Assembly: GCA_963662155.1 (NCBI GenBank)
Contig: OY759265.1
Span: forward strand, 37,301,548-37,365,547
From: Lamellibrachia columna
Lineage: Eukaryota > Annelida > Polychaeta > Sabellida > Siboglinidae
DNA length: 64,000 bases
Direction of reading: 5' to 3'
The position numbers and the translations under genes are program-made. This document shows, one piece after another, positions 3,310 to 43,207 of this stretch (positions are counted from its first letter, which is position 1; each line of letters begins with the position of its first letter). The notes below the pieces were generated by a model that saw only the letters and a list, made by a program, of their open reading frames with translations, was not told the DNA's origin and searched no databases.

Positions 3310-3376
3310 ATGGCGCTCTGTGCAGACATGCTGCGTTTGACAGCAGCAGTAATACTGTCGTTGTTTTTGTTGTCCG
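3310..3376 (+). CDS. Gene 1 exon 1: signal peptide
   Basis: The ATG at 3310 opens MALCADMLRL followed by a hydrophobic run (TAAVILSLFLLS). It ends at donor G|GTATGT in phase 1, which matches the phase-1 start of exon 2. I saw no TATA box upstream; the 5' UTR boundary is unknown. Confidence 0.75.
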
Positions 3377-6300: not shown

Positions 6301-9300
6301 TAGAATTTGTTGTATCAGTATGTTTTTGTGCCATTGTTTTTTATCAATTAATGACCATGGTTATGTGGGATAGACAAGTCTTAATCAGTTTAATGGACAA
6401 GATGCCCAAATAGCTAATTGTTATGAGAGTGGACAGCTTTAGGGTGACTGCTGTTTCAGTGGGTATACAGACAGGGAAGAGAGAGTGGTGCAGTTGCCTG
6501 TTTGAAATACGCAAAGAAGTCAGGTTAACTACAGCAGTGGACACGCATACATGTTGCAGGGTCTGGCGACACTATATCAAAAGTTTGTACAAGAGATGTG
6601 TTTTGGAGTGACTATTCACCCTTGCCATCAACCGGTGGACATGCAGCTCTATGTTGAGTGGCCTGACAAGCACACTACCTTCCGGCACACTTCAGTCACT
6701 AGTGAAATAGTACCAGTGCAAGGTAGTGTAAGCATTCATACTTCAGTCACTAGTGAAAGAGTACCAGTGCAAGGTAGTGTAAGCATTCATACTTCAGTCA
6801 CTAGTGAAATAGAACCAGTGCAAGGTAGTGTAAGCATTCATACTTCAGTCACTAGTGAAATAGTACCAGTGCAAGGTAGTGTAAGCATTCATACTTAGTT
6901 CAGTATACTGGACTCCCCAGCTATTATTACATGTAGCTCCAGTTTTTAAGGCATTTAAAATATATATTATAAAATATATAAAATCATGCTCCACACGAGA
7001 TGCCAATATGAGATATATGTAATACTTACTGACTAAGAAAATTTAAAAACATAACATTGAACACAGTTAAAAAAAATTTTTAACAGCGAGCGCTGTGCCA
7101 GCAAAGATGGCAGAGTGAGCATGTCAACTAACGTGGGTGTATATGTCAAACAAATTGGACGACAAATACCCAAGGAATTGAGTTTGTGCCTCATTATCCC
7201 GGTTATCCCAACTGTATAGTGTAGGAGAAGGTGGGGCATGTCCTGCCTGGGACCATTATGTACTGACAGATAGGCAACAATTACAGGGGATGGTTTTGCC
7301 CATTTTTATTCCCCCGGGCCCAGGGATCTGAACGTTGTCTTGCACCGGGAAAATAAACACTCACCCTTTGATTGGTCAATGCCGTAACTCGTATATAAAA
7401 GTAATAAAACGTATAAGCAATATAAAGCGCATATGCAATATAAGATGTAATAAAATTACAATTTTATTTTCTAACCCTTTTAGGGTTTTCTAGGTGATGC
7501 ATCGATTCTAGGACATAATCCCATGGACAAAATCCCCCCCCCCAGCAATATCCCCACCAGACAATATCCCTATAGGACAATATATTCCTGACAATAATAA
7601 ACATTTTAGAATTTTTTTAGGCCCTAGACTATATCCCCTGTTTGCAAGCAACAGTAAAATAATATTCATATTTAGTACACATTCCAAAATCTACATAGTG
7701 GTCCGGTCTACTTAGAGTCCAATATTGAATGCAAGACCAGGGAGATAGTGCATGTTGTTTCGCTCAGCATACTTCTATATATTGATATTGTTACTATGTT
7801 AGAGAAAGAAAATAAAATAAAGCTGAGTAGATTGTAAAACTTCATTAGGCAGTAACATTTATGTAGATAATTACAATCATATTAATAACCATCATCTGCA
7901 ACTGGATTGGGGATTTTGCCTATGGGGATTTTGACCAGGTGGATATTGGCGGGGGATTTTGTCCGGGGCGATTATGTCCGGATACCATGTGATGATGTGA
8001 CTTATGTAATTAGATAATCATAACACACGTGATATGATTATCTAATTACGTAAAAGTCATGTCATCGCCTCATGTAAAATGTAATAATAATTCATGCCAT
8101 GTTGTCAATAAACGTTTAACCAGGACTAATACAAGTTATTCACCTGGTACATGTTGTTTTTGTAGGAGCTACGTATGACATCACCACTGGCAAGGCTGAC
8201 GCATTTATCCTTATTGACATGGCACATATCAATGTTGGCGGACACCCGTACTTGAAGATAGGGGTGAGGTTTTATAGTATGCGTAATAAAATAAACATGG
8301 TCTAGAATATATCTGGAACGTAATATGTAAGGTAATATGTGTGTGTGTGTTTGTGTGTGGGGGGGTGGGGGGGTGGGTGGGGGGTGGAGGTGGGTGGGTG
8401 GGTGTGTAAATGTACATTATGGATACAGTGGACATCAGACAGTGACCCAGTTGGATTGACAATTTGTTTCCTTATTCCCATGAACTGGGTTTTGCATATT
8501 GTTTCTGTGAAACACATTAGTTTTATTTTGCTAGAGGCAGTTTTTATGTACAATGTACATTATTAGTTGTTCATTGGTCAAAGGACATCAGATTCTGTTC
8601 TCCAGATTTGTGCAGTGAACTGTAGATTGATTTGTTCATTTTGTGAACACATTTATTGTCTTCCTATTGCTGTGAACTGCTTAAGTTTGCACATGTTATA
8701 ATTTCTGTGAAATATGGTGGTTTATATTGGTGCCATATGATAGAGGACAGTTTGAATTACATATATACAAAGTTTTATCCATCTGGATGTGTTTTTACAA
8801 GTTGAACTGTGTTGCCCAATGTATATAAACTTTGAATGCAATTTTCTCAAAAAAACGTGTTTTTTACTTTGCTTGTTATCTTCAACTGAGCCCCATTTTG
8901 TTATTTCTCAACAGAATAGCTTGACACTTTTCACACTTCACCATGATAGTTTCCTTTTCAACAGCTATAGAATACTTTTTGGGAATTTGATCTGTTGTCA
9001 CAAAATGAGCCATGAATGTAAACCAACACCTCCATTACCTATAACGAAATTTTACCAAATATTGAAAAAACATTCTATAACTACACATTATTGTTGTGTA
9101 AAGTAAATGCATGCCAATTTTTGGGCATATATGACAAGTAGTTTCCAAATGGGGCTTATGTCATTTAAAATTCAGAATGGCCACTGTGCCACGGAAAACC
9201 CCGATGAAATTCTCTAAATTAAAAATATATATGAGGTAATTTCCCGAGTAACATCTCACTTTAATAAAAAAGTTTGTTCTTTTGTTACAATCATCAAAAG

Positions 9301-12300
9301 AACTTACTTTGATGATTAGATCATTAGATCAGGTAACTTGGAAAGGTGTTAATAGCCATATGTTATTGTATATACAACCATAGAGCTGGACCAGACTTTT
9401 CCAATGATTTCATTAAAATTAAATAACATCTGCACGAATGAGCTAGCATATTGTAGTGGATACTAGATGAGTTTACAGTAATTAGAATATAAATGTATAC
9501 TTGAATTGGAATTATGCATTGGTTTTGTGATTTCATGATGCAAATGCTCCAACCATTTTTCTGTGGTGTACTGTTCAGTCTATCGAACTTCACCTTTATT
9601 TTTACCCATTCATGCACAAATCTTCTGCTAAGATGTCCTGTGACAGTAGGGGAAGATGGGGCATGTCTGTACCCCTAAGACATAATGTATCCTCGCTAGT
9701 ATGCCAGTATCTATGTCAAAAGGGTATAAGTCAACCTTAATAACTACTGTATTAGTAGTAGTGTAGTAGTTGACAACTGCCAGTTACCAGAATACAACTT
9801 CAACAAGAAAAAAGTATAGTTAACAAAATGTATTGATCACCAGTGTGGCTAAGGGCAAACCAAGGTAAATTGTATTGATCACCAGTGTGTGGCTAAGGGC
9901 AAACCAAGGTAAATTGTATTGATCACCAGTGTGTGGCTAAGGGCAAACCAAGGTAAATTGTATTGATCACCAGTGTGTGGCTAAGGGCAAACCAAGGTAA
10001 ATTGTATTGATCACCAGTGTGTGGCTAAGGGCAAACCTAGGTAAAATGTATTGATCACCAGTGTGTGGCTAAGGGCAAACCAAGGTAAATTGTATTGATC
10101 ACCAGTGTGTGGCTAAGGGCAAACCAAGGTAAATTGTATTGATCACCAGTGTGTGGCTAAGGGCAAACCTAGGTAAAATGTATTGATCACCAGTGTGTGG
10201 CTAAGGGCAAACCAAGGTAAATTGTATTGATCACCAGTGTGTGGCTAAGGGCAAACCTAGGTAAAATGTATTGATCACCAGTGTGTGGCTAAGGGCAAAC
10301 CAAGGTAAATTGTATTGATCACCAGTGTGTGGCTAAGGGCAAACCAAGGTAAATTGTATTGATCACCAGTGTGTGGCTAAGGGCAAACCTAGGTAAATTG
10401 TATTGATCACCAGTGTGTGGCTAAGGGCAAACCAAGGTAAATTGTATTGATCACCAGTGTGTGGCTAAGGGCAAACCAAGGTAAATTGTATTGATCACCA
10501 GTGTGTGGCTAAGGGCAAACCTAGGTAAAATGTATTGATCACCAGTGTGTGGCTAAGGGCAAACCAAGGTAAATTGTATTGATCACCAGTGTGTGGCTAA
10601 GGGCAAACCTAGGTAAATTGTATTGATCACCAGTGTGTGGCTAAGGGCAAACCAAGGTAAATTGTATTGATCACCAGTGTGTGGCTAAGGGCAAACCAAG
10701 GTAAATTGTATTGATCACCAGTGTGTGGCTAAGGGCAAACCTAGGTAAAATGTATTGATCACCAGTGTGTGGCTAAGGGCAAACCAAGGTAAATTGTATT
10801 GATCACCAGTGTGTGGCTAAGGGCAAACCTAGGTAAAATGTATTGATCACCAGTGTGTGGCTAAGGGCAAACCAAGGTAAATTGTATTGATCACCAGTGT
10901 GTGGCTAAGGGCAAACCAAGGTAAATTGTATTGATCACCAGTGTGTGGCTAAGGGCAAACCTAGGTAAATTGTATTGATCACCAGTGTGTGGCTAAGGGC
11001 AAACCAAGGTAAATTGTATTGATCACCAGTGTGTGGCTAAGGGCAAACCAAGGTAAATTGTATTGATCACCAGTGTGTGGCTAAGGGCAAACCAAGGTAA
11101 ATTGTATTGATCACCAGTGTGTGGCTAAGGGCAAACCAAGGTAAATTGTATTGATCACCAGTGTGTGGCTAAGGGCAAACCTAGGTAAAATGTATTGATC
11201 ACCAGTGTGTGGCTAAGGGCAAACCAAGATAAATTGTATTGATCACCAGTGTGTGGCTAAGGGCAAACCAAGGTAAATTGTATTGATCACCAGTGTGTGG
11301 CTAAGGGCAAACCTAGGTAAATTGTATTGATCACCAGTGTGTGGCTAAGGGCAAACCAAGGTAAATTGTATTGATCACCAGTGTGTGGCTAAGGGCAAAC
11401 CAAGGTAAATTGTATTGATCACCAGTGTGTGGCTAAGGGCAAACCAAGGTAAATTGTATTGATCACCAGTGTGTGGCTAATGGCAAACCAAGGTAAATTG
11501 TATTGATCACCAGTGTGTGGCTAAGGGCAAACCAAGGTAAATTGTATTGATCACCAGTGTGTGGCTAAGGGCAAACCTAGGTAAAATGTATTGATCACCA
11601 GTGTGTGGCTAAGGGCAAACCAAGGTAAAAATGTGTTGATCACCAGTGTGTGGCTAAGGGCAAACCTAGTTAAATGTGTTGATTACCAGTGTGTGGCTAA
11701 GGGGCAAACCTAGGTAAAATGTATTGATTACCAGTGTGTGGCTAAGGTCAAACCTAGGTAAAATGTGTTGATTACTAGTGTGTGGCTAAGGGCAAACCTA
11801 TGTAAAATGTATTGATTACCAGTGTGTGGCTAAGGTCAAACCTAGGTAAAATGTGTTGATTACTAGTGTGTGGCTAAGGGCAAACCTATGTAAAATGTAT
11901 TGATTAGTAGTGTGTGGCTAAGGGGCAAACCTATGTAAAATGTATTGATTACCAGTGTGTGGCTAAGGGCAAACCTATGTAAAATATATTGATTACCAGT
12001 GTGTGGCTAAGGGGCAAACCTAGGTAAAATGTGTTGATTACCAGTGTGTGGCTAAGGGCAAACCTATGAAAAATGTGTTGATTACTAGTGTGTGGCTAAG
12101 GGCAAACCTAGGTAAAATGTATTGATTACCAGTGTGTGGCTAAGGGCAAACCAAGGTAAAATGTGTTGATCACCAGTGTGTGGCTAATGGCAAACCTAGG
12201 TAAAATGTATTGATTACCAGTGTGTGGCTAAGGGCAAACCTAGGTAAAATGTATTGATTACCAGTGTGTGGCTAATGGCAAACCTATGTAAAATGTATTG

Positions 12301-15300
12301 ATTACCAGTGTGTGGCTAAGGTCAAACCTAGGTAAAATGTGTTGATTACTAGTGTGTGGCTAAGGGCAAACCTATGTAAAATGTATTGATTACCAGTGTG
12401 TGGCTAAGGTCAAACCTAGGTCAAATGTGTTGATTACTAGTGTGTGGCTAAGGGCAAACCTATGTAAAATGTATTGATTACCAGTGTGTGGCTAATGGCA
12501 AACCAAGGTAAAATGTGTTGATCACCAGTGTGTGGCTAATGGCAAACCTAGGTAAAATATATTGATCACCAGTGTGTGGCTAATGGCAAACCTAGGTAAA
12601 ATGTATTGATTACCAGTGGGTGGCTAAGGGGCAAACCTATGTAAAATGTATTGATTACCAGTGTGTGGCTAATGGCAAACCTAGGTAAAATGTATTGATT
12701 ACCAGTGTGTGGCTAATGGCAAACCTAGGTAAAATGTATTGATTACCAGTGTGTGGCTAAGGGCAAACCTATGTAAAATATATTGATTACCAGTGTGTGG
12801 CTAAGGGGCAAACCTAGGTAAAATGTGTTGATTACCAGTGTGTGGCTAAGGGCAAACCTATGTAAAATGTGTTGATTACTAGTGTGTGGCTAAGGGCAAA
12901 CCTAGGTAAAATGTATTGATTACCAGTGTGTGGCTAAGGGCAAACCAAGGTAAAATGTGTTGATCACCAGTGTGTGGCTAATGGCAAACCTAGGTAAAAT
13001 GTATTGATTACCAGTGTGTGGCTAAGGGCAAACCTAGGTAAAATGTATTGATTACCAGTGTGTGGCTAATGGCAAACCTATGTAAAATGTATTGATTACC
13101 AGTGTGTGGCTAAGGTCAAACCTAGGTAAAATGTGTTGATTACTAGTGTGTGGCTAAGGGCAAACCTATGTAAAATGTATTGATTACCAGTGTGTAGCTA
13201 AGGTCAAACCTAGGTCAAATGTGTTGATTACTAGTGTGTGGCTAAGGGCAAACCTATGTAAAATGTATTGATTACCAGTGTGTGGCTAATGGCAAACCAA
13301 GGTAAAATGTGTTGATCACCAGTGTGTGGCTAATGGCAAACCAAGGTAAAATGTATTGATCACCAGTGTGTGGCTAATGGCAAACCTAGGTAAAATGTAT
13401 TGATTACCAGTGTGTGGCTAATGGCAAACCTAGGTAAAATGTATTGATCACCAGTGTGTGGCTAATGGCAAACCTAGGTAAAATGTATTGATTACCAGTG
13501 TGTGGCTAATGGCAAACCTAGGTAAAATGTATTGATTACCAGTGTGTGGCTAAGGGCAAACCAAGGTAAAATGTATTGATTACCAGTGTGTGGCTAATGG
13601 CAAACCTAGGTAAAATGTATTGATTACCAGTGTGTGGCTAATGGCAAACCTAGGTAAAATGTATTGATTATCAGTGTGTGGCTAATGGCAAACCTAGGTA
13701 AAATGTATTGATCACCAGTGTGTGGCTAATGGCAAATCTAGGTAAAATGTATTGATTACCAGTGTGTGGCTAATGGCAAACTTAGGTAAAATGTATTGAT
13801 TACCAGTGTGTGGCTAATGGCAAACCAAGGTAAAATGTATTGATTACCAGTGTGTGGCTAAGGGCAAACCTAGGTAAAATGTATTGATTACCAGTGTGTG
13901 GCTAATGGCAAACCTAGGTAAAATGTATTGATTACCAGTGTGTGGCTAATGGCAAACCTAGGTAAAATGTATTGATTACCAGTGTGTGGCTAATGGCAAA
14001 CCTAGGTAAAATGTATTGATTATCAGTGTGTGGCTAATGGCAAACCTAGGTAAAATGTATTGATCACCAGTGTGTGGCTAATGGCAAACCTAGGTAAAAT
14101 GTATTGATTACCAGTGTGTGGCTAATGGCAAACCTAGGTAAAATGTATTGATTATCAGTGTGTGGCTAAGGGCATACCAAGGTAAAATGGCATAACCGTG
14201 CAGGTGTGTGTGAATATGCCTTGCATATTTTAGGCTGTGGCAACAAGTAGAATAGAATGCAAACTGTGCTGGTATTTGTCCTTCCCTGTGAGGTGTATAT
14301 ATATATATATATTACTATTACCCAACACCTTGAGGGTATGTTGTTCCTATGCAAATGTCACAAGAATGTTGTCATCCCGTGTCATTGTTGCATGTCTGTT
14401 GCTACACAATGGTCCCAGACAGGACGTGCCCCACCTTCTCCTACATAATTGGGGGTAACGAAGCACAAACTCACCAGATGTTGTTCAGTATTGCCCTCTC
14501 ATTATATGTGTCATTTCTGTTGCTAGATGAAACTAAAGGTACGGCTGACAATGCTTGGACATGAGATTTGGCCAGAGTCGTTAGCAGTGCAGCTAATACC
14601 CGACACAGAGATCCCTGTGCCACGGTGTGATAAGTCTGTGATCACCCCTCCACACAAAGCTGGCACCTGCAACATCGGCTCCAGAGTTCCCTCTGTTGCT
14701 CCTGTTGATGTCGTACCAGAAGGTACAGAACCAACCGTGCAAAATTGATGCATATTTGTGTGTGTTTGTTTTCTGTAACTCACCATATGTGTTCTGTTAG
14801 CAATAACATTCGTCAAAACTGAACTGATTTTTTTTACATTTAATCAGGTTTAACAAGATTTAGCAATACATTCCCGCACAACGACACTCTCCAGATGGTA
14901 GATGGACAAAACATGCAGCCATTGGGTAAACAAGTTTAGAACAATTGTTCATCTGCATGTGGTCTGCTGTTAACAAATATCTGTCAGTTTTGTTCTTAAA
15001 CTTGCTTACATGTGGCAGCGTATACAATGTCATTTATTCTATTCATTTACGAGTACTTTGTTTTTTTCAATAATTTTACTAATGCAACTTCATACCGTCT
15101 TTCTCAACCTTCCTTAAGTTTCAGAAATATATTTTACATGCATTTCTGTACACAAGGGAATGCTGCTTTTGTACACAAGTTATTAATAAGATAGCACAGC
15201 AAATCTTTGGTAGGACAACTTTCTTATAAAAATATGTTCAAATGAATGTACTCGCCAGCATAAATTGGTTATCACTTTTAGATTCAAGACCTCTATATAG

Positions 15301-18300
15301 AGCACAGTGCAGCACCTCTCGGTGGAATCATCTGTCAGTTGCTACAAACACGAGTGCAATTGTTATATTCACAACGTAGTTTTGCTTGATTTGATTAATT
15401 GATATTGAAGCACCAGGTAGCTTCATATAATTAAAATGCCACATTATGTTTGGATCTCATCTAAATTAACAATGTAATTCTTCATGTTTTAATCTTTATT
15501 ATTGCTGTGGTATATTTATTATCAAAAAGTGTATAAAATGGAAACTTGACAGATTAATGAATGATCGTTATATTTATTGGTCTGTTTTTAATTGTGGTGG
15601 AGCAATCTCTATATATGTTGTAAAACTGCGGTCTCTATATATGTTGTAAAACTGTGGTCTCTGTATATGTTGTAAAAATGTGGTCTCTATATATGTTGTA
15701 AAACCGCAGTCTCTATATGAGTTGTAAAACTGCGGTCTCTATACATGTTGTAAAACTGTGGTCTCTATATATGTTGTAAAACTGCAGTCTCTATATATGT
15801 TGCAAAAATGCAATCTCTATATATGTTGTAAAACTGAGGTCTCTATATGCTGTAAAACTGCAGTCTCTGTATATGTTGTAAAACTGTGGTCTCTATATAT
15901 GTTGTAAAACTGTGGTCTCTGTATATGTTGTAAAACTGTGCAGTGCGGTCTCTATATATGTTGTAAAATATGGTCTCTATATATGTTGTAAAACTGTGGT
16001 CTCTGTATATGTTGTAAAACTGTGCAGTGCGGTCTCTATATATGTTGTAAAATATGGTCTCTATATATGTTGTAAAACTGTGGTCTCTGTATATGTTGTA
16101 AAACTGTGCAGTGCGGTCTCTATATCTGTTGTAAAACTGCGGTCTCTATATATGTTATAAAACTGCAGTCTCTATATATGTTGTAAAACTGTGGTCTCTA
16201 TATATGTTGTAAAACTGCAGTCCCTATATATGTTGTAAAACTGCAGTATCTATGTATGTTGTAAAACTGTGGTGTCTATATATGTTGTAAAACTGCAGTA
16301 TCTATATATGTTGTAAAAACTATATATTATAATTAACTAATTCAGTGTCACAATATCCCATAAAAAAGTCATTCAGCTAATCAATGAAAATGTTTGTACA
16401 TCCCTTTAAAGGGAAACAAATGTTGTGCTTTTGGGCCTAATAAGAATTAATAAAGCATAGCCATTTACAACTACAATCAAGAATATCACGCCAGTGATTT
16501 ACTAGGAAAACCTTGCTGAACACACTGCATCTTTATTTCATAGGCCGCGCCATATTGTTAGATAACCATACGTCACAAGTGCTTGTATTCTGGCAATATT
16601 CGCTCACCAAATGAAAATCTATTTGTAAGCGCCTAGTTTTATACTTGCCAATAGGATATGGCCGTGCTGTTTGTGTCTAAACTCAATTTATGCAACATAT
16701 TTTGGCCTTCGTCAGCTGCCTGGAAAACCGAGATTTGACCAGAATTTCCCATGTTTAGAACACATTCTGAGAAAACCACTAGCGTGATACTCTTGATTGC
16801 AAATGTTTAGTTTTTGTTAATTATTTTATGTGTATTGCCCCAAAACCATGACTTCTGTTTTGCTTTAAAGCTGTGCTGAGGCAGCTAATGTTGTGTGATC
16901 TCTAGTAGCATGGAACCTCAGTTGGTGGTTGAAATCTGACTTTCAGAGCAAGGCAAGCCCTGCATCAGCAACAGCATGCACGCGTGCATCTCCGGAGAGA
17001 TGTGTTTCGCACATAACAACAGTGGCAATGGTTACTGTGTTTGCCTGAATGGTTACACCCGAGACCATGATTCTGGTGACTGTAAGCTGGTGTCATCAAC
17101 TGCGGTTCCTGTCATCAAGCCTGGTAAGTGCAGGAGCTTCTGTCTTGTGTAATGACACACAGTGGCGTATTCTTCTTTGAACGTGTGTGGTGGTGATGTG
17201 TGCATGCATGTCCATGGGTAGGTGGTGGGTGCATGCATGCATGTCCATGGGTAGGTGGTGGGTGCATGCATGCATGTCCATGGGTAGGTGGTGTGTGCAT
17301 GCATGCATGTCCATGGGTAGGTGGTGGGTGCATGCATGCATGCATGTCCATGGGTAGGTGGTGGGTGCATGCATACATGTCCATGGGTAGGTGGTGTGTG
17401 CATGCATGCATTCATGTCCATGGGTAGGTGGTGTGTGCATGCATGCATGTCCATGGGTAGGTGGTGTGTGCATGCATGCATGTCCATGGGTAGGTGGTGG
17501 GTGCATGTGATTAATGAAAATCCCCTATTGATTGGGATTTATGTAAAGACTAAGACAGTTAAAATTATAGCTGTACCTATGAACAGAAATAATTAATAAA
17601 AACATTATGTATACTCTTTACTGATAGACAAAGCTTGAACAAATACATGAGATTCTGGTTCTAATACGTGATTTGGCAGATGTTGAACAGAGGTGAGAAG
17701 GGAATATTTTAAAGAATTGCGAAAAATGCTCTCTAACTAAAGCTGAATATTTCCCATCAATTCAGTTCCCTAGTGAAGATGAAAGGAGTTTCTGAGAAGG
17801 TCATGACGAGCCCAGTGACTTCAGAATAACACACAATTTGCCACGTTGTTTTCTGCTGTAAAAATATAACTTGTGTACTTTTCCCATAGAACAACACCAG
17901 TTGTTTGGCAGTGTGAGTGAACTACTGAGACACATTTTCTGTTAAATATTGTTGAGGGTTGCCCAGTACAATACCAATGATATGACAATCACAGTTGTCT
18001 TTTATGTATTTTAAAGGTGCGGCTAATCAACCAACTGGATCTGGCTCAAAAGGTAAATTTTATTATAATTACCTTATTGGTTATGCAGAAGCATTTTCTG
18101 TTATAATCTAAGCAAATGTAATATATCCACATTACCGTTTTATGTGACAAGATTTTGTTTCCTCTGAAATATGATATTAATTTTATATTAACATAGTATC
18201 AGTAGTTTTATGAATAGGTGAATTGCAGAGATTCATCTAACAGCATTCTTTTCCTTATGTCAATCAACTACCTGGGCTTTGCATATTGAAAATGGTGAAA

Positions 18301-21300
18301 TGTTTGATTAAGGGGACACACTATGTCTTTGAGGTTTTCTATAGCATAGTTAGTGAATGAATAAAAGTGCTTTAGATGTATGTAATTGTTATAAAAGTGA
18401 ACATGATTGATAGTAAAAATATATAAAGGAATACACATTTTGAGTAATTTTCTTTAAAAAAAATTATTTGTGGTGTGGTGTCTCTCCTGTCTCTCCCCCT
18501 TTTTCAAAACCATCTGGATAGGCCAGGAGAATACTGTTGTTTGTCTCCATGGTGAAGTAGGATCATTGTTTGTTTGGTCTGTCCACAGAACTCATCGTTC
18601 TTTGTTTGGTCTGTCCACAGAACTCATCGTTGTTTGTTTGGTCTGTCCACAGAACTCCCCCCCTTTTCAAAACCATCTGGATAGGCCAGGAGAATACTGT
18701 TGTTTGTCTCCATGGTGAAGTAGGATCATTGTTTGTTTGGTCTGTCCACAGAACTCATCATTGTTTGTTTCATCTCTCCACAGAACTCGTCGTTTGTTTG
18801 GTATGTCCACCCACAGAACTAATCGTTGTTTGTTTGGTCTCTCCACAGAACTCATCGTTGTTTGTTTGGTCTGTCCACAGAACTCATCATTGTTTGTTTG
18901 GTCTCCACAGAACTCATCGTTGTTTGTTTGGTCTCCACAGAACTCATCATTGTTTGTTTGGTCTCCACAGAACTCATCGTTGTTTGTTTGGTCTCCACAG
19001 AACTCATCATTGTTTGTTTGGTCTGTCCACAGAACTCATCATTGTTTGTTTGGTCTGTCTGCAGAACTCATCGTTGTTTGTTTGGTCTGTCCACCAAACT
19101 CATCGTTGTTTGTTTGGTCTGTCAACAGAACTCATCATTGTTTGTTTGGTCTCCACAGAACTCATCATTGTTTGTTTGGTCTGTCCACAGAACTCATCGT
19201 TGTTTGTTTGGTCTGTCTGCAGAACTCATCGTTGTTTGTTTGGTCTGACCACCAAACTCATCGTTGTTTGTTTGGTCTCTCCACAGAACTCATCATTGTT
19301 TGTTTGGTCTGTCCACAGAACTCATCATTGTTTGTTTGGTCTGTCCACAGAACTCATCATTGTTTGTTTGGTCTGTCTGCAGAACTCATCGTTGTTTGTT
19401 TGGTCTGTCCACAGAACTCATCATTGTTTGTTTGGTCTGTCTGCAGAACTCATTGTTGTTTGTTTGGTCTCTCCACAGAACTCATCGTTGTTTGTTTGGT
19501 CTGTCCACAGAACTCATCATTGTTTGTTTGGTCTGTCCACAGAACTCATCATTGTTTGTTTGGTCTGTCTGCAGAACTCATCGTTGTTTGTTTGGTCTGT
19601 CCACAGAACTCATCATTGTTTGTTTGGTCTGTCTGCAGAACTCATCGTTGTTTGTTTGGTCTGTCCACAGAACTCATCGTTGTTTGTTTGGTCTGTCAAC
19701 AGAACTCATCATTGTTTGTTTGGTCTGTCCACAGAACTCATCATTGTTTGTTTGGTCTGTCAACAGAACTCATCGTTGTTTGTTTGGTCTGTCCACAGAA
19801 CTCATCATTGTTTGTTTGGTCTGTCAACAGAACTCATCGTTGTTTGTTTGGTCTGTCAACAGAACTCATCATTGTTTGTTTGGTCTGTCCACAGAACTCA
19901 TCATTGTTTGTTTGGTCTGTCAACAGAACTCATCGTTGTTTGTTTGGTCTGTCAACAGAACTCATCGTTGTTTGTTTGGTCTGTCAACAGAACTCATCAT
20001 TGTTTGTTTGGTCTGTCCACAGAACTCATCATTGTTTGTTTGGTCTGTCAACAGAACTCATCCTTGTTTGTTTGGTCTGTCCACAGAACTCATCATTGTT
20101 TGTTTGGTCTGTCAACAGAACTCATCATTGTTTGTTTGGTCTGTCCACAGAACTCATCGTTGTTTGTTTGGTCTGTCAACAGAACTCATCATTGTTTGTT
20201 TGGTCTGGCAACAGAACTCATCATTGTTTGTTTGGTCTGTCCACAGAACTCATCGTTGTTTGTTTGGTCTGTCCACAGAACTCATCGTTGTTTGTTTGGT
20301 CTGTCCACAGAACTCATCATTGTTTGTTTGGTCTGTCAACAGAACTCATCATTGTTTGTTTGGTCTGTCCACAGAACTCATCGTTGTTTGTTTGGTCTGT
20401 CCACAGAACTCATCGTTGTTTGTTTGGTCTGTCCACAGAACTCATCATTGTTTGTTTGGTCTGTCAACAGAACTCATCGTTGTTTGTTTGGTCTGTCAAC
20501 AGAACTCATCATTGTTTGTTTGGTCTGTCCACAGAACTCATCGTTGTTTGTTTGGTCTGTCAACAGAACTCATCATTGTTTGTTTGGTCTGTCCACAGAA
20601 CTCATCATTGTTTGTTTGGTCTGTCAACAGAACTCATCATTGTTTGTTTGGTCTGTCTGCAGAACTCATCGTTGTTTGTTTGGTCTGTCCACAGAACTCA
20701 TCATTGTTTGTTTGGTCTGTCAACAGAACTCATCATTGTTTGTTTGGTCTGTCTACAGAACTCATCGTTGTTTGTTTGGTCTGTCCACAGAACTCATCGT
20801 TGTTTGTTTGGTCTGTCAACAGAACTCATCATTGTTTGTTTGGTCTGTCCACAGAACTCATCATTGTTTGTTTGGTCTGTCAACAGAACTCATCGTTGTT
20901 TGTTTGGTCTGTCCACAGAACTCATCATTGTTTGTTTGGTCTGTCAACAGAACTCATCGTTGTTTGTTTGGTCTGTCAACAGAACTCATCATTGTTTGTT
21001 TGGTCTGTCCACAGAACTCATCATTGTTTGTTTGGTCTGTCAACAGAACTCATCGTTGTTTGTTTGGTCTGTCAACAGAACTCATCATTGTTTGTTTGGT
21101 CTGTCAACAGAACTCATCATTGTTTGTTTGGTCTGTCCACAGAACTCATCATTGTTTGTTTGGTCTGTCAACAGAACTCATCCTTGTTTGTTTGGTCTGT
21201 CCACAGAACTCATCATTGTTTGTTTGGTCTGTCAACAGAACTCATCATTGTTTGTTTGGTCTGTCCACAGAACTCATCGTTGTTTGTTTGGTCTGTCAAC

Positions 21301-22164
21301 AGAACTCATCATTGTTTGTTTGGTCTGGCAACAGAACTCATCATTGTTTGTTTGGTCTGTCCACAGAACTCATCGTTGTTTGTTTGGTCTGTCCACAGAA
21401 CTCATCGTTGTTTGTTTGGTCTGTCCACAGAACTCATCGTTGTTTGTTTGGTCTGTCCACAGAACTCATCATTGTTTGTTTGGTCTGTCAACAGAACTCA
21501 TCATTGTTTGTTTGGTCTGTCCACAGAACTCATCGTTGTTTGTTTGGTCTGTCCACAGAACTCATCGTTGTTTGTTTGGTCTGTCCACAGAACTCATCAT
21601 TGTTTGTTTGGTCTGTCAACAGAACTCATCGTTGTTTGTTTGGTCTGTCAACAGAACTCATCATTGTTTGTTTGGTCTGTCCACAGAACTCATCGTTGTT
21701 TGTTTGGTCTGTCAACAGAACTCATCATTGTTTGTTTGGTCTGTCCACAGAACTCATCATTGTTTGTTTGGTCTGTCAACAGAACTCATCATTGTTTGTT
21801 TGGTCTGTCCACAGAACTCATCGTTGTTTGTTTGGTCTGTCAACAGAACTCATCATTGTTTGTTTGGTCTGTCCACAGAACTCATCATTGTTTGTTTGGT
21901 CTGTCAACAGAACTCATCGTTGTTTGTTTGGTCTGTCCACAGAACTCATCATTGTTTGTTTGGTCTGTCAACAGAACTCATCGTTGTTTGTTTGGTCTGT
22001 CAACAGAACTCATCATTGTGCTGTGCAGCTGCATGGCTGGAGTCGCCATTATCGGCATTGCTGTGCTTCTTGTTGTTCTTCGACTGCGCAAACATAGAGC
22101 ACGCTACGCCCAACACGAACAGCTACTCAACAATGAAGATGACCCCCTAGAGGTGTTGACATAG
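3310..22164 (+). CDS. Type I membrane protein with EGF-like domain, 9 exons, function unknown
   Basis: Assembled exons: 3310-3376, 5971-6131, 6560-6722, 8166-8263, 14527-14722, 14848-14925, 16947-17123, 18017-18052, 22007-22164. All junctions are GT-AG and all phases agree, giving 1134 nt or 377 residues. The order is signal peptide (1-22), an ectodomain with eight cysteines (about 23-254), an EGF-like domain (about 260-300), a short Ser/Pro/Gly linker, a transmembrane helix (327-350) and a basic-then-acidic tail (351-377). It should act at the cell surface or in endomembranes. I do not recognise the N-terminal ectodomain and give no function. The model rests on phase agreement across nine exons, not on transcript data. 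Tandem arrays overlap the exon 3 donor and the exon 9 acceptor, so the mature message may vary. Confidence 0.8.
3600..4540 (+). pseudogene. Decayed CR1/L2-like RT, 3' part, in intron 1
   Basis: Starts around FADDTTFF and runs with stops and frameshifts to the C-terminal block at 4130-4540 (TTLETRRLRAGLLEVFKIFN, then RLDVRKYSFTQRIVNDWNQL). That block is clearly related to the C-terminus of the 57031-58478 ORF but much more diverged, so it is an old copy of the same broad family. Confidence 0.85.
4600..4910 (+). pseudogene. Fragment of a retroelement endonuclease domain
   Basis: Contains the stretch VWATLELCDNGKLLLEVYRS followed by MNSEQDNN, which matches the middle of an endonuclease/exonuclease/phosphatase (EEP) domain of non-LTR elements. 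It lies downstream of RT sequence instead of upstream, so it is either a separate insertion or a rearranged piece. Confidence 0.6.
5066..5465 (+). mobile_element. tRNA-derived SINE with partly duplicated head
   Basis: An A box TGGCCTAGTGG lies at 5074-5084 and a B-box-like GAGTTCAAGACCC near 5117. About 85-90 bp of the head and body is repeated once in tandem (about 5090-5175 and 5183-5272). A body beginning TTTGCCTCTGTCTACTCAGC follows, then a 3' part GGTTTAAGCACTGGCCATAT and an ACCTACCTAC tail. The 3' part recurs at 39868-39955. Confidence 0.8.
5785..5892. repeat. TTGG-type simple repeat in intron 1
   Basis: A GGTT/GGTTT/GGAT simple-sequence tract. It accounts for the W/G/L-rich reading frames in this spot. 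Confidence 0.9.
5971..6131 (+). CDS. Gene 1 exon 2: first cysteine block
   Basis: The acceptor TCTGCAG precedes it and CGG|GTAATA ends it, phase 1 to phase 0. It encodes the end of the signal peptide region and a four-cysteine block: ECVVWDHISSMLEKK, then VYCQKNTQCTGFDCVG. Confidence 0.8.
6560..6722 (+). CDS. Gene 1 exon 3, with repeated donor
   Basis: The acceptor TTGCAG is followed by GGT CTG in phase 0, and the exon encodes a block with EMCFGVTIHPCHQPVDMQLY. It ends CAA G|GTAGTG, in the phase 1 that exon 4 requires. The exon end lies inside a 51-bp tandem repeat, so equivalent donors also exist after 6773, 6824 and 6875. Each adds 17 in-frame codons; the frame stops only at 6896-6898. A second GTAAGC donor sits 5 nt further in every copy but gives the wrong phase. 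Confidence 0.8.
6688..6896 (+). repeat. 51-bp x4 repeat across the exon 3 donor
   Basis: Four nearly identical units of 51 bp (17 codons), each reading TSVTSEIVPVQGSVSIH with minor changes (SER for SEI, EPV for VPV). Each contains CAAG|GTAGTG. Confidence 0.95.
7165..7280 (+). repeat. Dispersed repeat, copy 1 (intron 3)
   Basis: The core AGGAGAAGGTGGGGCATGTC and about 100 bp around it reappear inverted at 14398-14482. A shorter, diverged copy lies near 9649. All are in introns of gene 1. Confidence 0.65.
7511..7979. mobile_element. 469-bp foldback/MITE-like element, intron 3
   Basis: The left end reads GGACATAATCCCATGGACAA and the right end is its inverted counterpart (…TTTTGTCC…GATTATGTCC). 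Imperfect inverted arms of about 75 bp are built of short ATATCCC/AAATCCC motifs. There is no coding capacity and no clear target-site duplication, so the class is uncertain. Confidence 0.7.
7986..8074. repeat. Hairpin with about 37-bp arms
   Basis: The left arm (7986-8022, containing TAATTAGATAATCATA) pairs with the right arm (8033-8074) across a loop of about 10 nt. It lies directly after the foldback element and 92 bp before exon 4. It may be a small MITE. Confidence 0.75.
8166..8263 (+). CDS. Gene 1 exon 4
   Basis: The acceptor TTTGTAG is followed by GA GCT in phase 1, and the exon ends ATA GGG|GTGAGG in phase 0. It encodes ATYDITTGKADAFILIDMAH and so on, with no cysteine. Only this phase is open. 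Confidence 0.8.
8333..8406 (+). repeat. GT and G-rich tract
   Basis: A GTGTGT tract runs into GGGGGGGTGGGGGGGTGGG-type sequence with more than four G runs. It could form a G-quadruplex in the non-template strand or in the RNA. It begins 70 nt downstream of the exon 4 donor. Confidence 0.85.
8407..9825. other. Intron 4, no gene seen
   Basis: AT-rich intronic sequence. Short open frames here have no recognisable motifs. A diverged copy of the 7165 repeat core lies near 9649. Confidence 0.5.
9826..14190. repeat. 44-bp minisatellite, about 99 copies, in intron 4
   Basis: The unit is TGATCACCAG…GGGCAAACCAAGGTAAAT, 44 bp. Up to about 11640 it is highly uniform (TGATCACCAG, GTAAATTG). After that it is a variant block (TGATTACCAG, GTAAAATG). 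A rare variant, GGTCAAATGTG, occurs near 12418 and again near 13212, about 18 units apart, showing a higher-order duplication. Each unit carries AAG|GTAAAT or TAG|GTAAAA, similar to 5' splice sites. Confidence 0.97.
14398..14482 (-). repeat. Dispersed repeat, copy 2 (inverted relative to 7165)
   Basis: The reverse complement of GGAGAAGGTGGGGCACGTCC, with flanks matching 7165-7280. Confidence 0.65.
14527..14722 (+). CDS. Gene 1 exon 5
   Basis: Begins ATG AAA CTA AAG after TGCTAG in phase 0 and ends GAA G|GTACAG in phase 1. It encodes VRLTMLGHEIWPESLAVQL, then two cysteines (PRC, GTC) and a Pro/Val-rich end. The internal ATG is not the gene start. Confidence 0.8.
14848..14925 (+). CDS. Gene 1 exon 6
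   Basis: 26 codons between AATCAG and TTG G|GTAAAC, phase 1 to phase 1. It encodes LTRFSNTFPHNDTLQMVDG and so on, with no cysteine and one N-glycosylation sequon (NDT). It is supported only by phase and splice sites. Confidence 0.65.
15600..16320. repeat. 26-bp minisatellite, about 27 copies, in intron 6
   Basis: The unit is TCTCTATATATGTTGTAAAA plus CTGCGG or CTGTGG. A composite block containing GTGCAGTGCGG recurs three times (about 15935, 16022 and 16108), a local higher-order repeat. Confidence 0.95.
16403..16871. mobile_element. MITE with about 105-bp inverted arms, TTAA-flanked, in intron 6
   Basis: The left arm (TTTAAAGGGAAAC … AATCAAGAATATCACGCCAG) pairs with the right arm (CTAGCGTGATACTCTTGATT … GCTTTAAAG) over about 105 bp with mismatches. 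TTAA is present at both ends. No coding capacity. Confidence 0.75.
16947..17123 (+). CDS. Gene 1 exon 7: EGF-like domain
   Basis: The acceptor CTTTCAG is followed by AG CAA in phase 1, and the exon ends CCT G|GTAAGT. It encodes six cysteines in EGF order (about residues 260, 268, 274, 285, 287, 300) with the typical YCVCLNGY centre. The exon is a symmetrical 1-1 module, as EGF exons usually are. No calcium-binding DxxE signature precedes the first cysteine. Confidence 0.88.
17190..17510. repeat. 33/37-bp minisatellite, 9 copies, in intron 7
   Basis: The unit is GTCCATGGGTAGGTGG plus a GCATGCATGCAT stretch of variable length. It starts 67 nt after the exon 7 donor. Confidence 0.95.
18017..18052 (+). 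CDS. Gene 1 exon 8: 12-codon linker
   Basis: 36 nt between TTTTAAAG and AAA G|GTAAAT, phase 1 to phase 1. It encodes AANQPTGSGSK, a flexible stalk before the membrane helix. Its small size makes it the least certain exon. Confidence 0.6.
18495..18730 (+). repeat. Direct duplication at the head of the acceptor array
   Basis: About 65 bp (TTTTCAAAACCATCTGGATA … GAAGTAGGATCATTG) occurs at about 18501-18568 and again at about 18664-18731, with three array units between. Amplification therefore included single-copy intron sequence at least once. Confidence 0.9.
18556..22020 (+). repeat. 32-bp array of 3' splice-site units, about 107 copies
   Basis: The unit begins AACTCATCATTG, continues TTTGTTTGGTCTGTC and ends CCACAG or CAACAG. 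Some early units are 30 bp. Each unit holds a CTCAT branchpoint-like site about 26 nt before CAG, a T-rich tract and AG|AA. The final unit is the acceptor of exon 9, and the first 13 nt of that exon are still repeat sequence. The unit has no stop in any + frame, so all three + frames are open for kilobases. Confidence 0.96.
22007..22164 (+). CDS. Gene 1 exon 9: transmembrane helix and tail
   Basis: AA CTC ATC after CAACAG in phase 1. It encodes ELIIVLCSCMAGVAIIGIAV and onward, a 24-residue hydrophobic helix, then RLRKHR as stop-transfer and a tail ending EDDPLEVLT. Stop TAG at 22162. The first residues of the helix come from repeat-derived sequence. Confidence 0.85.
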
Positions 22165-28408: not shown

Positions 28409-31400
28409 TCACATTGCTTGTTGGTTGTACGACTGTTGTGGTGACGTGTCGACAGGTGGTATACTGCGTTGTGGAAACGTGCCGTCAGGTGATACACTGC
28501 GTTGTGGAAACGTGTCGTCCTGTCCTCTCTGCTGTGCATTCTGGTTGTCTGAACACTTTTGTCTTTTCGTCGTGTTGTCTGGTTCATTTTGCGGAGCAAC
28601 ATCTTTGTAGTGCTCTGGTGTGTTGCGTAGCTGTCGCCTATTTCTTCTATATGACGATCCACTACTCTCGATGATATAAGACCTGATGCCAGAAGTTTTC
28701 TTAACCCTTGCCAGTGTCCATGTTCGCGAGTCATTTGAGGTGTTTGGCTTCTTAAACCGTACAACATCTCCTGGCTGTAGTGTGCCGAGTTTCTTGCTCG
28801 TACGATTGTAAAGCCACGCTTGCTTCTCCTTTCGACGTTTTAGTTGTTCAGGAGCATCGCGTTGTGCTGCAGGATCGGTCTGCAGTAGCGCTGGCAGCAT
28901 TGGTAAGAGTGTTCTGGTTCGTCGCGCGAACATTCGTTGAGCGGGTGATGTATGCATAGCCTCTGTAGGTGTGTTTCGATAGTCCAGAAACGCCAGATAC
29001 ACATCCGCCTTGTCATCAAGCGCTTTCCGCATGATTTGCTTTGCCGTCTTGACTGCATTTTCCACCTTTCCGTTCGATTGAGGGTAGCGAGGTGATGATG
29101 TGATATGTTCAAATTCCCAACGTTTTGCGAACAACTTGAACTCTTCACACGCAAACTGCGGTCCATTGTCGGAAATCACTTTGTCCGGAACACCGAATCT
29201 TGCAAAGTGAATACGGAGTTTGGTGATCACCTGTGCTGCACTGGTCACTGACAGCTTGTCAACCTCGAAAAAATTCGAGAAGTAATCCACCGTTATGAGA
29301 TAGTTCTGGTCATGAAGGTGGAACAGGTCAACTCCAACCCGTGACCAAGGACGTGACGGAATGTCATGTGACAACAATGGCTCCCTGCATTGATCTGGTT
29401 TGTATGTGTTACATGTACTACAGGCACTGATGACATCTTTCACTTCGTGGTTCATGCCTGGCCAAAACATTACTTCATGTGCTCTTCGGAGACATCCTTC
29501 AACTCCTAAGTGCGAGGAGTGGAGTTTCTTTACGAGCATGGCGCGCATGTCACGAGGTATGACGATTCTTTGACCCTTGAACAGTGCGCCATCCTGTGTG
29601 CTGAGCTCGTCACGGCAACTGAAGTAAGGTCGTGCGAGTGGATCGACTGCTTGACGTCGATCTGGCCATCCCTGCAGTGTGTAGCGAACTACAGTTTTAA
29701 CTTCGCTATCTTCAAGTGACTTGCACATGATTTCTTGTAGTCCGTTGGCCGACAGATGAACATCCTCAGTCATGTCCATTTGTTGCAGTTCAACAGCTAA
29801 CACATGATCTCCTGGGTCATGTGCGTGGCTGTACGGAAGATATGCCCGAGAGAGCGTGTCTGCGATGAGCATGTCTTTGCCTTTCGTGTACACAACGTCT
29901 ATGTTGTATTTCTGCAGACGTAGCAGCATTCTCTGCAGTCTCTTCGGTGCATCGATCATCGATTTCTTTGTGATTATCTCAAGCGGCTTGTGGTCTGATT
30001 GCACGGTGATGTGTCTTCCATACACATACTGGTCAAATCTTTCACATGCAAACACTATTGCTAATAACTCTTTTTCGATCTGTGCATAGTTCTCTTCGGT
30101 ATGTGTTAAAGCTCGAGAGGCATAGCACACTGGCTTTCCCTCTTGCAGAAGCACTGCACCCAAACCACTTTGGGATGCGTCGCACTGGATTGTGATTGCT
30201 TGTGTTACATCATAATATGCGAGCACTGGCGTTGTTGTGATCATTTCTCTGATCTTGTGCAAAACATCTTGATGTTGTTCAAGCCAGCACCACTCTACAT
30301 CTTTCCGATCTAGCTGCCTAAGTGGTTCACATACTTCCGACAGATGTGGTAGGAATTTCGCAAGGTAACCGACCATTCCGAGAATTCGCTTCAGTGCTGT
30401 AATATCCGTTGGAGGAGGCATTTTCATAATGGCCTCTACCTTGGATTCGTCTACCTTGAGTCCCTCGTCGGTGAGTACATGACCAATGAATGGTACAGAT
30501 TTGCTTCGTATTTGAACTTTGTCTGGGTTCAACACAAGGTGGCACGTTCTAGCCCGTTCCAGAAGTGCCCTTAGATTGGCGTCATGGTCACGTGTTGCTT
30601 CTTCGATTGTGTCTCCAAACCCGATGCACAAGAAGTCGTCAGCTACTACTTCTACACCTTTGAGTCCTTCAACTACTTCGTGCGCACGGCGTTGCCACTC
30701 TTCTGGTGCTGAGTTTATCCCAAATGGCATTCGTAGCCAGCGGTAGCGACCGAAAGGCGTATTGAACGTCGTGAGGTAGCTAGAGTCTTTCTCAAGTTTC
30801 ACTTGCCAGAAACCTGACTTGGCGTCTAGTACCGAGAACACTTTGGCATTAGTGAGACGTGTTGCGACATCTTCCAGTGTAGGAAGCGGGTAGTAAGAAC
30901 GCTGAATTGCTTTGTTCAGGTCTCTAGGGTCCAAACAAATCCGCAATTTGTTTGTATTCTTCTTCCTCACTGCAATCATGCTCGACACCCACTGAGTTGG
31001 TTCGGTGACAGGAGCGATAATTCGGTCCCCCACCATGTGTGTTAATTCACCCTTTATGTCTTCTCGTAAAGCACACGGAACTCTGCGGGGTGGATGTACC
31101 ACTGGTCTGACACCTGCATCAATCTGAATTCTATAGTCGCCCGCGAGGCAACCAAGTCCCTCGAATACATCTGGGTATTCTCTGAGTACTGTGTCCTGAA
31201 ACACTTGTGACCTCTTGCTGTTCACTGAAGTGTGCTTTGTATCTGCTTTCAATGGACATGCTATACCAGACTTTGAGATCGTCTGTGTTGTCTCTTTCTT
31301 GTCATGTTGGCTGTCAGTACCTTTGCCACGGTTATGTCTGTTTGTTTGCCTCACAACTGCATTTATTGCATCGCAATCGTTAATCTGAATCAAGTCCAGG

Positions 31401-31666
31401 TCAAGACAAGATTGCAAACTTAGTAGTGGGACAACATTATCTCGCACAACAACGAAACGCATATGTCTCTGTGTTCCCTTGCGGTGCACCCGCAAACGCG
31501 CCAATCCCATCGGTTTTACTACCGATTTGTTGTGCATGACGAGTCTAATGTTCGTATGTTCCACCTTGCTGCATAAATGATCTTCTGTAGCACGCACGTA
31601 ATCCTGATATGGTAGGATGTCTACCGACGACCCTGTATCCATGTGGAATGATACATTTACTTTCAT
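28409..31666 (-). CDS. pol: Gypsy pol polyprotein, 1085 residues, intact
   Basis: Domains in order: aspartic protease (MDTGSSVDILP near the start), reverse transcriptase (SVLDAKSGFWQVKL, MPFGINSAPEEWQRR, VVADDFLC), RNase H (IQCDASQSGLGAVLLQEGKP, ENYAQIEKELLAIVFACERF), integrase zinc-binding HHCC region (HSSHLG … CSTCNTYK) and the catalytic D-D-E core (GVDLFHLHDQN, SDNGPQFACEEF, NGKVENAVK). There is no internal stop. It overlaps the gag frame by about 120 nt in another frame, so it was probably made by frameshifting. The uninterrupted ORF points to recent insertion. Confidence 0.95.
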   Translation of the reverse strand: MKVNVSFHMDTGSSVDILPYQDYVRATEDHLCSKVEHTNIRLVMHNKSVVKPMGLARLRVHRKGTQRHMRFVVVRDNVVPLLSLQSCLDLDLIQINDCDAINAVVRQTNRHNRGKGTDSQHDKKETTQTISKSGIACPLKADTKHTSVNSKRSQVFQDTVLREYPDVFEGLGCLAGDYRIQIDAGVRPVVHPPRRVPCALREDIKGELTHMVGDRIIAPVTEPTQWVSSMIAVRKKNTNKLRICLDPRDLNKAIQRSYYPLPTLEDVATRLTNAKVFSVLDAKSGFWQVKLEKDSSYLTTFNTPFGRYRWLRMPFGINSAPEEWQRRAHEVVEGLKGVEVVADDFLCIGFGDTIEEATRDHDANLRALLERARTCHLVLNPDKVQIRSKSVPFIGHVLTDEGLKVDESKVEAIMKMPPPTDITALKRILGMVGYLAKFLPHLSEVCEPLRQLDRKDVEWCWLEQHQDVLHKIREMITTTPVLAYYDVTQAITIQCDASQSGLGAVLLQEGKPVCYASRALTHTEENYAQIEKELLAIVFACERFDQYVYGRHITVQSDHKPLEIITKKSMIDAPKRLQRMLLRLQKYNIDVVYTKGKDMLIADTLSRAYLPYSHAHDPGDHVLAVELQQMDMTEDVHLSANGLQEIMCKSLEDSEVKTVVRYTLQGWPDRRQAVDPLARPYFSCRDELSTQDGALFKGQRIVIPRDMRAMLVKKLHSSHLGVEGCLRRAHEVMFWPGMNHEVKDVISACSTCNTYKPDQCREPLLSHDIPSRPWSRVGVDLFHLHDQNYLITVDYFSNFFEVDKLSVTSAAQVITKLRIHFARFGVPDKVISDNGPQFACEEFKLFAKRWEFEHITSSPRYPQSNGKVENAVKTAKQIMRKALDDKADVYLAFLDYRNTPTEAMHTSPAQRMFARRTRTLLPMLPALLQTDPAAQRDAPEQLKRRKEKQAWLYNRTSKKLGTLQPGDVVRFKKPNTSNDSRTWTLARVKKTSGIRSYIIESSGSSYRRNRRQLRNTPEHYKDVAPQNEPDNTTKRQKCSDNQNAQQRGQDDTFPQRSVSPDGTFPQRSIPPVDTSPQQSYNQQAM

Positions 31667-32285
31667 TTATTGTCAGCGTTGCGTGAGCTTTCGTTTTGCG
31701 ATCCATGCCTACTGTGTGAATGACTTCAACAATTTGATGTGTGTCTCTACTTCTGCACATCTTGGCGTAGTGTTTGTGTTTCCCGCACGTATGGCAGGTG
31801 GCTCCACGAGCTGGGCATTTGTCCTTCCACTTTGGGTGTGCACCCCCACAACTACTACACACTGATCGTCCCTCACCAGAAGGTAATGCACGCCTGCTAC
31901 TGATGGGTGTGTACTTGCTAGTACTTGTCCTGTTGAACCTTCTTGGAAAATTGCCATAACTTGCATTATGTGGACTGGTTGTGGCTGTTGACTTGTTTGG
32001 CACCGTTTTATACCTGACCGTATGAGTCGTTATTTCTGTGTTCATTTCTTGTGCACGTGTGTGCGTGACCTGTAACGTCTTCAGCATATCGATGCACGTT
32101 TCTAGGTTTAGATTCTCTTTTGCCAGCAATTTTTCCCTTGCTTGTTCATCTCTTACTCCGATCACTAATCTGTCTCTGATTAGTCTCTCTCAAAGATCCA
32201 AAATTGCACGTGGCCGACAGTTTATGAAGCGCCGTTATGTATGCTTCTACCGTCTCACCTGCGTTTTGCGATCTCTTGAAGAATC
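31545..32285 (-). pseudogene. gag: Gypsy gag, C-terminal part with zinc knuckles
   Basis: It reads RSQNAGETVEAYITALHKL, then LIRDRLVIGVRDEQAREKLL, then two knuckles: CSSCGGAHPKWKDKC and the canonical CHTCGKHKHYAKMC. A one-base frame slip lies near 32187. Its N-terminal half is on the other side of the RTE insertion (35376-35675). Confidence 0.85.
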
Positions 32286-32362
32286 ATGACAGTGTTCACG
32301 ATGTCTTTGTGAACAAGGTCAGTTTGAATCACATACCGGATCGGTCGCAGCCCGGGTCAAAA

Positions 32363-39060: not shown

Positions 39061-39094
39061 TGCCCCCCCCACTTTGTATGTTAAAAAACGCCCT

Positions 39095-39780
39095 GGTCCA
39101 CACTCGGCTCGAGCCTTCTCTGTCCACAGAACAGAGCATTTGGTCCACACTCAGCTCGAACCTTCTCCACCCACAGAACACACTACCTGGTACACCATCA
39201 ACTCAAACCTTTTCTGTCCACAGAACACACCACCTGTTCCACACTCGACTTGAACCTTCTCTGTCCACAGAACACACCACCTGGTCCACACTCGACTCGA
39301 ACCTTCTCTGTCCACAGAACACACCACCTGATCCACACTCGACTCGAACCTCCTCTGTCTACAGAACACACCACCTGGTCCACACTCGACTCGAACCTCC
39401 TCTGTCCACAGAACACACCACATGGTCCACACTCGACTCGAACCTTCTCTGTCCACAGAACACACTACCTGATCCACACTCGACTCGAACCTTCTCAGTC
39501 CACAGAACACACCACCTGGTCCACACTCGACTCGAACCTTCTCAGTCCACAGAACACACCACCTGGTCCACATTCGACTCGAAGCTCCTCCGTACACAGA
39601 ATACATCACCTGGTCCACACTCGACTCGAACCTTCTCAGTCCACAGAACACACCACCTGGTCCACATTCGACTCGAAGCTCCTCCGTACACAGAATACAT
39701 CACCTGGTCCACACTCGACTCGAACCTTCTCTGTCCACAGAACACACCACCTGGTCCACACTCGACTCGAACTTCCCTGG
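39095..39780. repeat. 47-bp minisatellite, about 14 copies
   Basis: The unit is CTGGTCCACACTCGACTCGA, then ACCTTCTCTGTCCACAG, then AACACACCAC. It contains the 14-mer TCTGTCCACAGAAC that is also in the 32-bp array of gene 1. Long frames on both strands are artefacts of the repeat. Confidence 0.95.

Positions 39781-41329: not shown

Positions 41330-43207
<1,878 letters not shown>

Follow-up and report, generated by a model that had tools for sequence, protein, structure and literature searches.

The 3′ splice site in front of the last exon of a predicted membrane-protein gene of Lamellibrachia columna lies in a 32-bp minisatellite that holds 104 intact copies of this acceptor. The minisatellite, delimited with Tandem Repeats Finder and motif counts, occupies positions 18562..22019 (forward strand) of the window, the whole 64,000-nucleotide stretch that was analysed (contig C5, 37301548–37365547, of an 880-Mb genome in 30 contigs), and crosses the boundary between intron 8 and exon 9. 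It is probably a boundary-spanning minisatellite of the type called a “mirage”, amplified in place and tolerated as a by-product, with splicing mostly at the exon-side copy and some leakage to the others.

Structure of the acceptor array

Tandem Repeats Finder described the array with a period of 32, 108.2 copies and 92% matches, and with the consensus unit ATCATTGTTTGTTTGGTCTGTCCACAGAACTC. A full unit comprises a branch-site-like CTCAT, a T-rich tract and CAG|AAC. The hexamer CAGAAC occurs in the array 104 times, with starts that span 18586 to 22004. Of the 103 intervals between them, 94 measure 32 bp, five measure 30 bp and the others 33, 64, 64 and 99 bp. When the units were anchored by their T-rich core, and so independently of the CAG, 106 were obtained; the acceptor is intact in 104 and lost in two, which read CCACCAAAC. 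The earlier note had described an acceptor amplified about 107-fold; the amplification is confirmed, with 104 rather than 107 acceptors intact. It had also stated that each unit has its CTCAT some 26 nt ahead of CAG, which is accurate for 95 of the 103 CTCAT motifs in the array (measured from the A of CTCAT to the G of the next CAG), the other eight being at 24 nt (five motifs), at 58 nt (two, where the AG is lost) or at 16 nt (one, which reaches into the exon).

All AGs within 18562–22006 are part of the 104 acceptors, except five (18683–18722) in a 99-bp interruption near the left end of the array. This left end (18495..18810, forward strand) is the most degenerate part and consists of two copies of a 163-bp block that combines intron sequence with the first units. 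Variation along the array is found mainly at two unit positions. The last CAG ends at 22006 and the exon starts at 22007, so that with the array end at 22019 the first 13 nucleotides of exon 9 are repeat, as had been proposed. A small hairpin, UCUG-N4-CAGA, in which the acceptor AG is base-paired, is also possible in full-length units (18578–18589 and the corresponding bases of most units).

Host gene and the last exon

The gene model comprises nine exons on the forward strand. Exon 1 (3310..3376) is probable; it was picked among four ATG candidates that passed a simple hydrophobicity and donor filter, encodes the signal-peptide-like MALCADMLRLTAAVILSLFLLS and ends in phase 1 at the donor CCG|gtatgt. 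Exons 2–6 (5971–6131, 6560–6722, 8166–8263, 14527–14722 and 14848–14925) keep a single open frame across all junctions. Exon 7 (16947..17123) has an EGF-like cysteine pattern, which against Pfam EGF_4 reached E = 0.013 and 16 bits, below the cut-off of 27. The 36-nt exon 8 (18017..18052) ends in phase 1 at the donor CAAAAG|gtaaat. On the basis of frame, phase and hydropathy, the coding part of exon 9 (22007..22164) encodes a transmembrane segment (best 19-residue stretch with a hydropathy of 2.8) and a cytoplasmic tail ending in ...EDDPLEVLT; AATAAA is present after the exon at 22729. Joining exon 8 to the last array unit (22007) brings together agreeing phases (1|1) and gives an unbroken nine-exon frame of 377 aa with no repeat added, which fits the claim of the earlier note that the final unit is the acceptor of exon 9, a boundary that we infer from frame and phase. 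We read the 377-aa product as a putative membrane protein with a signal-peptide-like start, a cysteine-containing ectodomain, an EGF-like module, a transmembrane segment, basic stop-transfer residues and a short tail. A competing acceptor outside the repeat, GTGCAG|CTGC (22023..22032, forward strand), would end the intron at 22028 and lead to a frame other than that of the transmembrane segment, with a different tail. Local RNA structure was also considered as a selector between 22006 and 22028; it is neither supported nor excluded, as the outcome of folding around the two sites shifts with the folding window.

Two protein pieces (without exons 1 and 6) matched no Pfam family above its cut-off, and the eight-exon protein (exons 2–9, 354 aa) had no homologue at E ≤ 1 among 1,297 candidates. 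All seven matches of the gene in its own genome at E ≤ 1 are its own exons, and the gene is single copy at the sensitivity of the genome search. The exon 9 tail gave 167 pattern stretches in viral_contigs, none confirmed as a relative, and the array unit gave no match in viral_contigs and genome_contigs, where records of the own genome were possibly left out. As no homologue, paralogue or unit match was found elsewhere, the ancestral single-copy state is absent for comparison.

Equivalent acceptors and reading frames

The 23 bases from −20 to +3 of the acceptor at 22006/22007 occur 36 times, and its −32 to +13 sequence occurs 15 times (last unit included), in line with the earlier description of a spliceosome facing near-identical acceptors. 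Because the 23-mer is present 36 times, the local sequence is unable to mark the right site and local scoring models tie. The earlier note expected the choice of an upstream acceptor to add repeat to the last exon. This is the case for part of the 104 possible joins only: 29 (last included) retain the transmembrane frame, at a cost of 32 additional residues per three full units upstream, 66 switch to one of two alternative C-termini (34 and 32 joins) and nine stop early. From the first acceptor (exon start 18589) the frame is open for 1,169 residues, but it bypasses the transmembrane segment and has another C-terminal tail; with acceptors 2–4, translation would stop early. All three frames are open over most of the array, which is unremarkable given that 14% of shuffled units are without a stop in any frame.

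Origin and growth of the array

A genome-wide search (880 Mb) with the 25-base unit core, allowing two mismatches at most, placed 97 of 97 matches inside the array, indicating that the array most probably arose in situ from this acceptor; a dispersed or mobile minisatellite would have its unit at other loci. The same string of 12 unit types is found twice, 36 units apart. The mean number of differences per 32-bp unit, calculated without the two commonly variable positions and without units that deviate in length, which account for 8 of the first 17, is from left to right 0.89, 0.38, 0.06, 0.06, 0.06 and, on the exon side, 0.0. In a mirage, concerted evolution would act on the inner units and bypass those at the boundary; the left-end units are divergent, as this predicts, and the exon-side units are homogenised. 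ATCATTGT is present at both edges of the array, in the intron on the left and within the exon on the right, the two lying 32 bp apart within a unit; this pair would fit birth by slippage, an appearance shared by any array with a partial last unit.

The window contains a second array (39092..39779, forward strand; 47-bp unit, 14.7 copies) that shares the 14-mer TCTGTCCACAGAAC with the acceptor array, and no coding exon was recognised beside it. Of the 59 genome-wide matches of the 14-mer, 55 lie in the window (mean of 0.00 in 100 shuffles), with 48 of them in the acceptor array and seven in the second array, and only four lie elsewhere; a control pattern with the letters of TCTGTCCACAGAAC reversed had 6 forward and 29 reverse matches genome-wide. 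Its presence in two arrays 17 kb apart, and otherwise no more commonly than by chance, is indicative of local re-seeding, in which a short segment of one array possibly seeded the other.

Minisatellite background and a second acceptor array

The genomic context was sampled with twenty 10-kb stretches (L003–L022) at round positions picked blind on 15 contigs. Minisatellites with a period of at least 7 make up 51,380 of the 200,000 sampled bases, which include 8,724 N, or ~27%, with 18.8 kb contributed by the arrays in L003 (68-bp unit over 8.8 kb) and L008 (28-bp unit over the whole stretch). In the window, minisatellites account for 11,296 of 64,000 bases. Acceptor-likeness was evaluated in the 36 arrays (72 strands) of the sampled stretches with units of 15–100 bp and at least five copies. 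An acceptor-like consensus was present on 2 of the 72 strands, one strand in each of two arrays (shuffle mean 1.32; two or more in 112 of 300 shuffles), and looser definitions of the tract gave 3 vs 2.6 and 5 vs 3.7 (observed vs shuffle), so that an excess of acceptor-like arrays was rejected as no more than shuffled units give. No exon is evident after the acceptor-like array at L017 8116–8625. Donor-like units were found in 3 of 49 sampled arrays, those of L005, L014 and L021, and L005 and L021 on examination showed no clear exon boundary. Long open frames at two TCP1-family exons, among 48 matches, were rejected as a sign of arrays; the corresponding stretches (L050 and L051, 1.6 kb) hold no array touching the exon or its acceptor side.

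One case in the 20 sampled stretches is a further exon-abutting acceptor array. This array of a 43-bp unit (C2:31004526–31006438, or L006 4526–6438) abuts an internal exon and contains 45 YAG acceptor sites among 70 AGs, with a YTNAY motif 25 nt upstream in 34 of the 45, 23 nt upstream in two and none at 18–40 nt in nine. Its last unit would be the acceptor of the exon at 6423–6529, in frame with the preceding exon (3930–4013) and with the next one; these exons are putative, being drawn from frame and splice signals. The joined protein presumably resembles USP34, and its peptides returned nothing usable from Pfam and PDB. From 44 of the 45 acceptors a stop is met before the next exon; the last one alone reads through. 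As none of the other sites can give this protein, the organism would have to be able to use the exon-side copy, provided that the gene works and the exons are right.

Arrays are also frequent within the gene that carries the 32-bp minisatellite. At the exon 3/intron 3 boundary, Tandem Repeats Finder and the reading frame identify a 51-bp unit in 4.1 copies (6689..6896, forward strand), in which the donor CAAG|gtagtg occurs four times (after 6722, 6773, 6824 and 6875), all in frame and each adding 17 residues. The introns contain minisatellites at 9825–14189 (44-bp unit, 99 copies), 15606–16318 and 17187–17507. Two of the 16 junctions of the gene are located inside six larger arrays covering 49% of the gene span, which is fewer than under random placement, and nothing therefore suggests a targeting of splice sites: the arrays avoid exons and occasionally catch an edge.

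Several other features were observed in the window. Two tandem tRNA-like matches (Rfam RF00005) at 5070–5239 are probably a tRNA-derived SINE. The open frames at 28409–31666, 32228–35364 and 57030–58478 are ones that we take to be retroelement-like; the last has at least 120 database matches, which carry a reverse transcriptase Pfam domain, and as those listed are 98–100% identical the element was probably recently active. Downstream, a probable first coding exon (MADAELLGKLFDKADKDGDG...) lies at 41330–41441, the product of which is presumably EF-hand-like.

Comparison with known splice-site repeats

NAGNAG tandem acceptors are adjacent competing 3′ splice sites, 3 nt apart, that share one branch site. 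The array likewise presents competing 3′ splice sites, but these are 32 bp apart in 94 of 103 intervals, and each full unit has its own branch-like motif and tract. Closer counterparts are the mirages of amphioxus, minisatellite-like tandem copies of intron–exon boundaries, which affect the globin genes BflGb6/BflGb9, Adh3, troponin C and PGBD5 (PMC3087553, PMC3902484; the PGBD5 mirage is described in the latter, which cites those of Adh and troponin C) and reportedly leave regular splicing undisturbed (PMC3087553). As in these mirages, the units are in tandem across an intron–exon boundary and many contain AG/GT signals: the array ends 13 nt inside exon 9 (with the boundary placed by frame and phase), CAG|AA is found in 104 of 106 units and CTCAT at 26 nt in 95 of 103 motifs. 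The 32-bp unit is within the 10–72 bp range given there for the units of the Adh3 mirage. The acceptor-side mirage of BflGb6 is described in the same text with 3 or 6 units of 150–160 bp (PMC3087553), against 104 acceptors in 32-bp units here and 45 in 43-bp units in L006. Tandem duplication of AG/GT is also at the centre of the Rogers model of intron gain as presented there (PMC3087553), with which the array has duplicated boundary signals in common; unlike in that model, no new intron is seen and the duplicates remain in the old intron.

The donor-side equivalent is the 25-bp VNTR in intron 18 of human ABCA7, which has 12 to about 427 units and includes the exon 18 donor (PMC5954066). A one-unit retention product is reported there at about 2% and a cryptic-acceptor product at about 14%; with VNTR length, exon 19 skipping increases and expression falls (PMC5954066). 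Both repeats are flush with an exon and include its splice site, and ABCA7 illustrates that large splice-site arrays occur. In contrast to ABCA7, it is the acceptor that is copied next to exon 9, the array at 6689–6896 of the same gene being the one that carries a donor, and splicing was measured in ABCA7, whereas for exon 9 it is deduced from the DNA. Tandem repeats in human duplicated genes have also been reported to activate cryptic splice sites (PMC2812944). No acceptor array of comparable copy number was found in the titles and abstract openings retrieved from the open-licence literature on minisatellites, VNTRs or mirages and splicing. With mirages already published and ~27% of the sampled genome consisting of minisatellite, a reading of the amplified acceptor as a singularity is not supported. 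As far as these sources go, the kind is already known, from mirages and from the ABCA7 donor equivalent, and the scale and context are new.

Choice among the acceptors

The proximity and first-AG rules would favour upstream units. We nevertheless favour an exon-side choice, in the following form. The seed may have arisen when the intronic and exonic copies of ATCATTGT, which lie 32 bp apart, slipped against each other, and the array would have been amplified in place, grown by block duplication and homogenised. In most transcripts exon 8 would be spliced to the last unit (22007), as the reading frame suggests. As the same local signal is present in dozens of units, the exon-side choice must come from beyond the repeat, most likely through exon definition by the unique part of exon 9 and the nearby polyadenylation signal. 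A minority of transcripts would probably leak to upstream units at a low level, with C-termini that lengthen in a 32-nt ladder as the result. The array would most likely be a bystander of minisatellite turnover that caught a splice site, and not an adaptation. The unbroken 377-aa frame, the local origin, the left-to-right polarity, the tolerance indicated by L006, the amphioxus precedent and the minisatellite background support this account. Against it, upstream units are transcribed first, and upstream use would be weakly punished here as the frames are mostly open. With 104 copies, leakage could exceed the level seen in ABCA7.

A stochastic choice, in which many of the 104 units are used and a graded family of isoforms with a ladder of C-termini results (either the transmembrane frame extended by repeat inserts of 32 residues, or one of the two alternative tails), is rather unlikely. 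In its favour are the 36-fold presence of the −20 to +3 sequence and the 95 of 104 acceptors from which a frame is open into exon 9, that of the transmembrane segment in 29 cases, and altered frames in a last exon should escape exon-junction-dependent decay. These open frames are weak evidence, however, with 14% of shuffled units free of stops, and in L006 such a choice would lead to a stop from 44 of 45 sites; published mirages are said to splice normally (PMC3087553, PMC3902484). That the 5′-most acceptors (exon start 18589) win under a first-AG rule, giving a last exon that opens with more than 3.4 kb of repeat, is highly improbable: these sites are transcribed first and the first frame is open for 1,169 residues, but that frame lacks the transmembrane segment and has another tail, acceptors 2–4 give early stops, and the leftmost units are the most degenerate.

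It also appears very unlikely that the array is a selected device, with a field of decoys or spare acceptors tuning the removal of intron 8 and array length setting expression. The AG is kept in 104 of 106 units, and array length in ABCA7 correlates with lower expression and exon 19 skipping (PMC5954066); homogenisation alone could preserve motifs, however, acceptor-like units are not in excess (2 of 72 strands, shuffle mean 1.3) and junctions in arrays are rarer than random (2 of 16 at 49% coverage). We would hardly expect the gene model to be wrong, through another terminal exon or an array length that is an assembly artefact. Such an error would be compatible with the want of a homologue against which to check the tail and with the 12-unit string recurring 36 units on, which could be a misassembly; it is opposed by the agreement of phase, transmembrane hydropathy, basic stop-transfer residues, stop codon and AATAAA, and by a mixed unit order that long reads can resolve.

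Implications

Acceptor choice among equals is usually studied with few engineered copies, and to our knowledge no designed construct has tested it at such copy number. The two genes described here, one with 104 acceptor copies and the other with 45, provide a natural test. As dozens of acceptors in the 104-copy gene are locally identical, a preference among them must come from distance, transcription order or the exon. We tentatively suggest, as a generalisation that may well prove too broad, that splice-site arrays are widespread in this genome, that many introns end in tens to a hundred almost identical acceptors and that the spliceosome routinely takes the one touching the exon. If so, 3′ splice-site choice here would follow an exon-side rule rather than first-AG or proximity, and array turnover would keep renewing acceptors and supply raw material for exon extension. 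These observations suggest that minisatellites can make up about a quarter of a genome, with arrays that extend over the splice sites of coding genes.
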